62,842 bases of DNA from Erysipelotrichaceae bacterium (GTDB taxonomy: Bacteria; Bacillota_I; Bacilli_A; Erysipelotrichales; Erysipelotrichaceae): NCBI GenBank assembly GCA_022799495.1, contig JAAWON010000005.1, positions 1 through 62,842 on the forward strand, in the 5' to 3' direction. The notes below the pieces were generated by a model. It saw only the letters and a list, made by a program, of their open reading frames with translations. It searched no databases and was not told the DNA's origin. This document shows positions 1 through 41,280 of the stretch, in pieces. Each line of letters begins with the position of its first letter. The stretch's first letter is position 1. The translations under genes were made by a program, and so were the position numbers.

Positions 1-355
1 CTTCGTGCTTTGCGGCGTAGCTGGTGACTTTCCGTAAATTCTCGGTCACTCCGGCGGTCAAAAGGTCGGTGCGTTCCTGTGCACCAATCTTAATTCCTGC
101 AACTTCGATCACACTGTCCTGAGGATGAAATAAGCGATTTGCTTTTTTATAGGGTGCGGCAATCCGAGTAACATCTTCGACAAAGGGATTGGCACGGATA
201 GTTTTTTCATCTAAGCCGGCGGTATCACCAACCAAGCCAAACACATTGTAATTGTCTCCATGAATTAAGGTGACCTGTAGACCGCGCTGTTCAAATCCTT
301 GGATCAGGCGGTCAATCTCCGTTTGCGGAGCTGTTTTTTTTAACGTGATAATCAT
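1..355 (-). CDS. aroF: DAHP synthase, N-terminal part (cut by window edge)
   Basis: The product would be 3-deoxy-7-phosphoheptulonate synthase, which joins phosphoenolpyruvate and erythrose 4-phosphate in the first step of the shikimate pathway. Only the first 118 residues are in the window. They begin MIITLKKTAPQTEIDRLIQG and show the ferredoxin-like N-terminal domain of the AroF/AroG-beta class (VGDTAGLDEKTI, then the IAAPYKKANRLFHP stretch that leads into the barrel). The catalytic barrel lies outside. The ATG has a good AAAGGAGGAATA ribosome site. It follows aroE-aroK after 38 bp on the same strand, so the two are probably one operon under the attenuator at 1810-1939. Confidence 0.88.
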   Translation of the reverse strand, partial: MIITLKKTAPQTEIDRLIQGFEQRGLQVTLIHGDNYNVFGLVGDTAGLDEKTIRANPFVEDVTRIAAPYKKANRLFHPQDSVIEVAGIKIGAQERTDLLTAGVTENLRKVTSYAAKHE

Positions 356-393: not shown

Positions 394-1644
394 TCATCTT
401 TGGCAATCTTGCCATGCTTGTATGATTGCTTGCGTAATGGATTCGATATCCGTATCATTTGTGACAGTAAAATCACTGTATGCTTCATATAGTTCTTTTC
501 GTTCTTCATATAAAGTCGCAATTGCTTGACGATCACTGGAGAGGGGACGTTCCTCATCGACGAGCAGTTGATCTAGATTGCGCTTGATGTAAATACAAAC
601 TCCATTCATAGCAAGATGCATCATGTTATCCTTATTTTTTACAATACCACCGCCACAAGCAATGATCACTCCTTGCTTCGCAGCGAAACGTAGGGCAACT
701 TGCTGTTCCAATTGACGAAATGCTGCTTCACCATCCTCGAGGATGATTTGTTTAATGGAGCGATTGTTCTGTTTTACAATTTCTGCGTCTAAATCAATCA
801 GTTCACGTCCCATTGCTTGGGCAAGCGAGCGGCCAATTGTGGTTTTCCCACAGGAGGGCATGCCGATCAAAACTAGATTGCGCTTACTTTGCAGGATCTG
901 ATGATAGAGCGAGTCAATACATGCATCGCTCAAGGTGCGATCTGTAAAAAACTCCACCGCATATTTTGCTTGTGCCACCAACATTTCTAAGCCACCCACA
1001 TAGGGAATCCCCATGTATTTCGCTTGAATACAGGTTTTCGTATCAATGGGGTTGTAGATGATATCCACATAGGCGCTAACGTGTGGGAAATCGTGTAAAT
1101 CACATGGCATATCGGTTAGATTTGGATACATTCCACAGGGTGAGGTATTTACGATGATTTGCACATCGGTATGTTCTTTTCGCGCTTGTTCATAGGTGAT
1201 TGTATGTGGACTTGGACTGCGCCGAACGCTAATCAGTTCTCGACATCCTTCATCACGCAGTACTGCTTTGATCGCTTGTGCCGCTCCACCATCGCCAAGT
1301 ACAAGCACCTTTTGATCTTTCACTGTGATATGATGCCGGCGTAATGTATATAGGAAACCATCATAATCTGTATTTGTCCCATGTAATTGTCCATTCTTTT
1401 TTCTGATCGTATTGACCGCACCAATCTGTTTGGCTTTATCATCCATATCATCCAGATAGGGAAGCACCTTCTGTTTATAGGGAATGGTCACATTGATTGC
1501 TTGAAAGGATCGCTCCTTCATAAAACGATGAAATTTTGTTTCATCTAATGGCCAAAGCTCATATTGATAATCAGCCAGTTGTTCATGAATTTGTTTGGAA
1601 AAACTGTGCTTGAGTTGCGCACCGATTAAACCATACTCCATCAT
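394..1644 (-). CDS. aroE-aroK: Shikimate dehydrogenase / shikimate kinase fusion protein
   Basis: One 416-residue frame carries two consecutive shikimate pathway enzymes. Residues 1-250 are AroE, which reduces 3-dehydroshikimate: HSFSK near residue 13, the NVTIPYK motif with catalytic Lys57, NTDYDG with Asp93, the nucleotide loop GDGGAA at 117-122 and NTSPCGMYP. Residues 255-416 are shikimate kinase: Walker A GMPSCGKTT at 261-269, DLDAEIV, FRQLE, CGGGIV and the ERPLSS lid. No stop or internal start separates the halves, so a real fusion is expected. Two Met codons start the frame; the second (1641) has better spacing from the GAGGG site. aroF follows. Usually these are separate proteins, so the fusion is lineage-specific. 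Confidence 0.9.
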   Translation of the reverse strand: MMEYGLIGAQLKHSFSKQIHEQLADYQYELWPLDETKFHRFMKERSFQAINVTIPYKQKVLPYLDDMDDKAKQIGAVNTIRKKNGQLHGTNTDYDGFLYTLRRHHITVKDQKVLVLGDGGAAQAIKAVLRDEGCRELISVRRSPSPHTITYEQARKEHTDVQIIVNTSPCGMYPNLTDMPCDLHDFPHVSAYVDIIYNPIDTKTCIQAKYMGIPYVGGLEMLVAQAKYAVEFFTDRTLSDACIDSLYHQILQSKRNLVLIGMPSCGKTTIGRSLAQAMGRELIDLDAEIVKQNNRSIKQIILEDGEAAFRQLEQQVALRFAAKQGVIIACGGGIVKNKDNMMHLAMNGVCIYIKRNLDQLLVDEERPLSSDRQAIATLYEERKELYEAYSDFTVTNDTDIESITQAIIQAWQDCQR

Positions 1645-1809: not shown

Positions 1810-1845
1810 AAAAAAAGCATCTCGATAGGTTGCTCAGATGCTTTT
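1810..1845 (-). terminator. Attenuator terminator of the aro operon
   Basis: On the minus strand, AAAAGCATCT pairs with AGATGCTTTT, followed by a run of seven U. It sits between the aromatic-rich leader peptide and aroE-aroK, where the terminator of a ribosome-mediated attenuator should be. Its loop contains CUAUCG, complementary to the end of the leader-peptide reading frame. Confidence 0.72.
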
Positions 1846-1851
1846 GTGTAC

Positions 1852-1895
1852 GCCTCATAAAGTGAAAATGACCAAACATTTTGGTTTTATGAGGC
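1852..1895 (-). promoter_or_regulatory. Leader hairpin directly after the aro leader peptide
   Basis: GCCTCATAAA pairs with TTTATGAGGC, with an inner AAAATG/CATTTT helix. The first base of the hairpin is the last base of the leader peptide stop codon, so a ribosome at the stop would cover its foot. This is the usual layout of a pause or competitor hairpin in attenuation. How it couples to the terminator is not clear by eye. Confidence 0.55.
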
Positions 1896-1939
1896 TATCG
1901 AAAGGTAAAATAGGCATTCAGACGGATGGATTGTTTCAT
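1895..1939 (-). CDS. Aromatic-amino-acid leader peptide (14 residues)
   Basis: A short frame encodes MKQSIRLNAYFTFR and then stops at UAG. It has an AGGAG ribosome site 9 nt before its ATG and lies just downstream of a good sigma-A promoter. Tyr10, Phe11 and Phe13 cluster before a hairpin and a rho-independent terminator that precede aroE-aroK-aroF. By analogy with known trp, phe and his leaders, stalling at these codons when charged tRNA-Tyr or tRNA-Phe is scarce should permit readthrough into the shikimate genes. The peptide itself probably has no other role. The layout is read directly from sequence; the mechanism is inferred. Confidence 0.75.
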   Translation of the reverse strand: MKQSIRLNAYFTFR

Positions 1940-1964
1940 CTTTATCAGCTCCTGTCTTGGCATA

Positions 1965-1993
1965 ATCATACAAGAATGAAACCTAAAATGCAA
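1965..1993 (-). promoter_or_regulatory. Sigma-A promoter of the aro leader and operon
   Basis: On the minus strand TTGCAT (1993-1988) and TATGAT (1970-1965) are separated by exactly 17 bp. Transcription would start near 1958, about 20 nt before the leader peptide ATG. Confidence 0.68.
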
Positions 1994-5808: not shown

Positions 5809-5814
5809 CTTAAC

Positions 5815-6035
5815 GAAAAGCAATGAACACGGAATAGTACGTTATATCCTGCGCAAAGAGAGCAGCTGGAAGGTGAAAAGCTGTGCATGGAATAGGGGAA
5901 CTCGCCGTTGAGCTGATAATGAGAATTATCCGTATCCTTGCGTTACAAGGCTAAAGTGCATAGATCGTTTATGATTTATGAAGCAAGGTGGTACCGCGTT
6001 CATGACGTCCTTCGCAAGATGGGATGTTTTTTTTT
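5815..6035 (+). promoter_or_regulatory. T-box riboswitch of leuS (Leu specifier)
   Basis: The leader has the canonical T-box parts in order: AGTA of the specifier-side loop (5835), AGAGAG and the apical CAGCT/AGCTG stem with a GGTGAAA loop, the specifier loop GAA-CTC-G with CTC at 5901-5903, the T-box core GGTGGTACCGCG at 5988-5999, and a terminator (ACGTCC/GGATGT with nine T) ending near 6035. CTC reads as Leu and agrees with the gene. Uncharged tRNA-Leu binding should stabilise the antiterminator and turn on leuS. Confidence 0.9.
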
Positions 6036-41182: not shown

Positions 41183-41280
41183 GTGTTGTATGTCCTTTTA
41201 GGCTTACAACCGCACATGTCCGGGTTTTAAGTATGAGCAATCATCTCCGGTTGTGGCGAGTCTGAAGAAATCATGAAGGA
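41183..41280 (+). promoter_or_regulatory. Structured leader of rplU (L21 leader candidate)
   Basis: The leader has two competing helices. GTTGTA (41185-41190) can pair with TACAAC (41205-41210), while ACAACCG (41206-41212) can pair with CGGTTGT (41248-41254). The shared ACAAC strand makes them exclusive, as in a feedback switch. L21 operons of Firmicutes often carry a ribosomal-protein leader, so autoregulation by L21 or L27 is the likely role. I identify it by position and structure, not by a family match. Confidence 0.5.

Follow-up and report, generated by a model that had tools for sequence, protein, structure and literature searches.

Does the short region upstream of a fused aroE-aroK gene in an Erysipelotrichaceae bacterium carry a leader-peptide attenuator that responds to phenylalanine and tyrosine, and if so, through which RNA structure would it switch? 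The original prediction concerned the minus strand of the window, which is the whole 62,842-nucleotide stretch of DNA analysed here, and named a promoter, a ribosome site, a 14-residue frame, a hairpin at the stop codon and a terminator with seven U; each of these parts was found where it had been placed (Table 1). The first base of the hairpin, hereafter hairpin A, is the G of the TAG stop codon (1895). From the promoter boxes we infer a transcription start of the leader near 1958, and aroD is divergent from the element, starting at 2248. A generic promoter and terminator scan listed neither the promoter nor terminator T of the window, because the promoter reaches 8/12 and the terminator loop exceeds the length that the scan permits. 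The 166 nt of the element fold better than shuffled sequences (z -2.64). Three aromatic residues in five codons are expected in ~1.2% of random frames at the window's composition, so the window by itself is no proof of a leader.

Table 1. Parts of the leader element and the genes behind it, in window coordinates.
Feature	Position	Strand	Sequence or detail	Basis
-35 box	1988..1993	minus	TTGCAT	read directly
-10 box	1965..1970	minus	TATGAT, 17-nt spacer after -35	read directly
Shine-Dalgarno	1949..1953	minus	AGGAG	read directly
Leader ORF	1895..1939	minus	MKQSIRLNAYFTFR*, 14 codons + TAG	read directly
Control codons	1901..1912	minus	Tyr-Phe-Thr-Phe (TAT TTT ACC TTT)	
Hairpin A	1852..1895	minus	10-bp outer stem GCCTCATAAA/TTTATGAGGC	folding + covariation
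Inner hairpin I	1872..1884	minus	CCAAAATGTTTGG, T-rich stretch after it	
Intrinsic terminator T	1810..1845	minus	AAAAGCATCT...AGATGCTTTTTTT, seven T	folding, swap test
aroE-aroK	394..1644	minus	fused shikimate dehydrogenase-shikimate kinase	TIGR00507 1.9e-46; shikimate kinase models ~1e-31
aroF	2..355	minus	DAHP synthase, second operon gene, cut by contig end	NF009933 5.1e-16, NF006421 4.2e-15

To follow the element through relatives, we used a covariance model (R1) built from 15 element sequences of the genus and of more distant genera. R1 matched 42 loci in 29 of the 273 family genomes, spread over 15 of 60 genera, and the target genes in the family are aroE-aroK, aroB and aroF. The identity of aroB downstream of the element was checked at one locus (TIGR01357, 3e-96), and the DAHP synthase downstream of the element was recognized by NF006421 (1e-151). 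All seven genomes of the genus (7/7) carry the element before aroE-aroK, with leader peptides MKLHHSFFYYFTFR, MKLHHSFFYCFTFR, MTIHSAIPFYFIFQ and MKHSLIFVFPFTFR and a promoter that reads TTGCA or TTGCT, a 17-nt spacer, and TATGAT or TATCAT. Leader peptides before aroE-aroK in more distant genera include MHTTTYETFYFYFR, MKQTSSKFYFYFR and MHLATSSVFYFYFQ. When R1 was run on 395 sampled genomes of the class, it returned family members and one other match (G575), which sits in unrelated sequence and is probably due to chance. A search of the class for a FYFYF-stop pattern had too high a background once one mismatch was allowed, and none of the loci inspected proved to hold a leader. The genome that contains the window (87% complete) gave no second copy of the element below E 1.9, and a 100-aa aroB probe taken from a relative found no aroB there.

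The leader frames, readable at 41 of the 42 loci, have a mean length of 13.3 codons and hold a mean of 4.9 Phe/Tyr residues, with a range of 3-6 per leader in the family, and Trp is absent from all 41. In 39/41 of these relatives, 3-8 nt separate the end of the Phe/Tyr run from hairpin A. A Shine-Dalgarno was scored in 31/41, the other 10 scoring without one. In six aroB leaders (L050, L056, L057, L058, L060, L061) the start codon lies close behind a -10-like sequence without a Shine-Dalgarno, and their mRNA may be leaderless. One locus (L067, 1501-1606) has lost the stop codon ahead of hairpin A, and its frame continues across A until it meets a stop in the 3' arm, so that a non-stalled ribosome would still be able to disrupt A; the Tyr run and hairpin A are both retained there despite the lost stop.

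The pairing of hairpin A is maintained while its sequence changes: across 41 distinct sequences, 94% of cells are paired and compensatory changes occur at 9/9 modelled outer pairs. The covariation score of the whole structure is 0.534; shuffles give 0.184, and slid versions reach no more than 0.122. Swapping the partners of hairpin A between sequences costs a mean of 7.7 kcal/mol (z -15.7), and the same kind of test on the terminator arms, T5:T3, gave z -9.3. The position is conserved as well; namely, the 5' end of hairpin A coincides with or adjoins the leader stop codon in the relatives, and an intrinsic terminator lies 0-8 nt past it, with no overlap, in 42/42 loci. Conservation of the Tyr/Phe codons and the terminator in relatives had been named beforehand as a test of the prediction, and it was passed in 7/7 genus genomes and across 15 genera. 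Since this arrangement is kept so widely and the nine outer pairs show compensatory changes, a chance origin is excluded, and the relatives lend support to the proposal that aroE-aroK-aroF lies behind an attenuator whose leader peptide has Tyr/Phe codons.

The sequence inside hairpin A is also conserved beyond the needs of pairing (CCA..UGG, then a U-rich stretch), a feature that would suit a hairpin binding a protein or a small molecule, that is, a riboswitch or a protein-controlled attenuator in which the frame is secondary. We regard this reading as highly improbable: conservation before all three targets extends to the Phe/Tyr run and to the short distance between it and A, the sequence of the outer stem varies freely, and an Rfam search of the element gave no family match above threshold.

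The element is instead most probably a ribosome-mediated transcription attenuator that controls the shikimate pathway in response to charged tRNA-Phe and tRNA-Tyr, as judged from comparative sequence analysis and predicted folds. It shows the general features of such attenuators, namely a short frame rich in codons of the pathway and an intrinsic terminator between that frame and the first gene. An RNA structure dependent on ribosome position, hairpin A, is present by computation, as masking to ~12 nt past the stop removes hairpin A in 18 aroE-aroK folds. With Phe and Tyr plentiful, a ribosome at the stop codon would cover the 5' arm of hairpin A, and with A blocked, terminator T would form and transcription would end. 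If either amino acid runs short, the ribosome would stall in the aromatic run, upstream of hairpin A, which would then form and let RNA polymerase read through.

The original prediction called the attenuator complete, and this part was not borne out, as the antitermination step is not visible: neither the folds in three ribosome states nor the swap tests revealed, for the window's element, an alternative fold that excludes T. An antiterminator and a terminator sharing a strand, as in the classical trp/phe/his type, were not found. Eighteen aroE-aroK leaders were folded over the stretch that begins at the aromatic run and ends with T; the probability of T was ~1 with no ribosome on the RNA, with one covering it up to the stop and with one stalled upstream. 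For the window's element, folded with the upstream leader included, it was 0.93 in all three states. In full-leader folds of L050, L054, L056, L057, L060 and L061, T was lost in some states. Swap tests gave no signal for A3:T5, A5:T5, inner region:T5 or A:T3 pairings and detected no partner of the U-tract, and a window-by-window scan of all segment pairs returned weak signals only, apart from A and T themselves. A pairing of AUAGC at the leader end with GCAU in T5 was seen by eye; the swap test is powerless there, because the two segments hardly vary. A 326-nt fold pairs the leader over a long range with sequence around 1700, which is unlikely to be general, because most relatives show a few tens of nt from T to the gene.

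We consider it unlikely that the element is of the classical type and that its antiterminator escaped detection, as might happen if the leader frame paired over a long range with the terminator 3' arm (T3). Complementarity between leader and T3 does exceed that of swapped partners (z -3.9, and z -4.5 in the set of 34 representatives) as well as that of shuffled leaders (Stouffer -5.45), and apparently compensatory pairs exist in L058 (AGGCAUC:GAUGCCU) and L061 (AAGCAUC:GAUGCUU). However, this signal comes from a few clades, and for the window's element the folds give leader:T3 a probability of 0.00 in every state. The pairing appears in folds of a few relatives (L050, L054, L057, L060, L061), but in L050 and L054 it persists when a ribosome occupies the stop codon, a state in which antitermination should not occur. 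Moreover, the competing leader segment tends to be covered under stall and to be free when a ribosome sits on the stop codon or when none is present, which is the reverse of what such a switch needs.

The apparently full compatibility of A and T in the window could also mean that the terminated RNA is the main product in all states, with the leader acting after transcription through RNA stability or as a trans-acting small RNA. This is a most improbable account, given that in most relatives T stands directly before the gene, where no room is seen for another promoter, so that readthrough must express the genes.

For the ribosome-mediated attenuator, then, a different link between hairpin A and the terminator is needed. 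As hairpin A shares no strand with T, we propose, with low confidence, that a formed hairpin A abuts T and hinders its closure. This abutment is our own guess, and would be the simplest idea to fit the constant short spacing. It is possible, though doubtful, that a ribosome-gated hairpin serves in this way as an antiterminator without strand competition, standing directly against the terminator, and does so regulon-wide (aroE-aroK, aroB, aroF) in a Bacillota family. Abutment antitermination, if true, would be a switching principle unlike that of the classical 2:3/3:4 attenuator; the apparent compatibility of hairpin A and terminator T poses a mechanistic puzzle.

Timing might be assisted by a pause. 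Inner hairpin I, together with the T-rich tail behind it, may act as a pause site for the polymerase and let the ribosome catch up, a step to which we attach low confidence. The motif TTNTTT occurs in the 3' half of A in 24/34 representatives against 12.3 expected after shuffling (sd 2.6), and the window's copy, TCATTT, is one mismatch away from it. NusG encoded in the window's genome contains VRNTPGVTGF, which matches a segment of B. subtilis NusG. The NusG-dependent pause signal of B. subtilis consists of TTNTTT located 11-6 nt upstream of the RNA end together with a pause hairpin (PMC12288461). For NusG-type pausing at hairpin A, this resemblance in sequence is suggestive only.

We then compared the element with known systems. 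T-box RF00230 had no match at 1600-2100; the window's single T-box match lies at 5814-6015 on the plus strand (RF00230, 111.7 bits), and a ribosomal protein L21 leader (RF00559) lies at 41198-41273, also on the plus strand. The E. coli pheA leader model (RF01859, Phe_leader) gave 17 bits (E 3.5) against a gathering cut-off of 55 bits, which places the element outside that family. In the E. coli pheA type, the antiterminator and the terminator are mutually exclusive through a shared strand. The pheA leader and the element both have a short Phe-rich leader peptide, a hairpin and a terminator, but differ in that strand-sharing was not found here and the target gene is another one.

In the literature, within incomplete coverage, we found no description of the element in this family or at aroE or aroB. 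The closest description, compared as such only, is that of uORFC-13-1, a predicted Phe uORF upstream of aroF represented by 24 sequences from Acholeplasma and environmental sources (PMC8632094). Like the element, it combines a shikimate target, a promoter, an RBS and a Phe-codon uORF with a base-paired substructure and an adjacent intrinsic terminator (PMC8632094). In contrast, uORFC-13-1 is confined to aroF and to "at least one" Phe codon (PMC8632094), whereas the element belongs to another family, precedes aroE-aroK, aroB or aroF and has 3-6 Phe/Tyr.

Leader-peptide attenuation in Bacillota has also been predicted for his genes, in Bacillus (PMC2965389) and in the B. cereus group, Peptostreptococcaceae and Erysipelotrichales, where alternative antiterminator structures were reported (PMC9413887); these leaders resemble the element in kind, but carry His codons and serve his genes (PMC2965389, PMC9413887). 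The S. aureus ilv-leu attenuator peptide, for which there is experimental support, is likewise a Firmicute leader peptide with codons of its pathway, and its terminator stem stays intact in the proposed antiterminator fold (PMC5794164). There, an upstream motif was proposed to pair with the poly-U tail (PMC5794164), whereas the element revealed no such partner. The remark in the original prediction that such control is not often described in Firmicutes is fair, but his, ilv-leu and Acholeplasma aroF leader attenuators had already been predicted or supported.

Set beside these systems, the element would extend the known leader-peptide attenuation of Firmicutes to a broad Phe/Tyr form at aroE-aroK, aroB and aroF. 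If this holds, sensing of ribosome position controls aromatic synthesis across a Bacillota family in which T-box or protein control would usually be expected, and such sensing presumably requires that translation follow closely behind transcription. The element also constitutes an RNA family with strong covariation and three target operons that has no Rfam entry.

Leaders of another kind occur in other genera of the family. At seven loci (L083, L084, L085, L086, L090, L091, L095), His-rich leader peptides (e.g., MFRFTAMHHHHHHVTDRSSVSASL) are followed by a terminator and precede an apparent amino-acid ABC transporter binding protein gene. In the L086 His leader, CCGGACU repeats the sequence of the terminator 3' arm, the pattern known from classical antiterminators.
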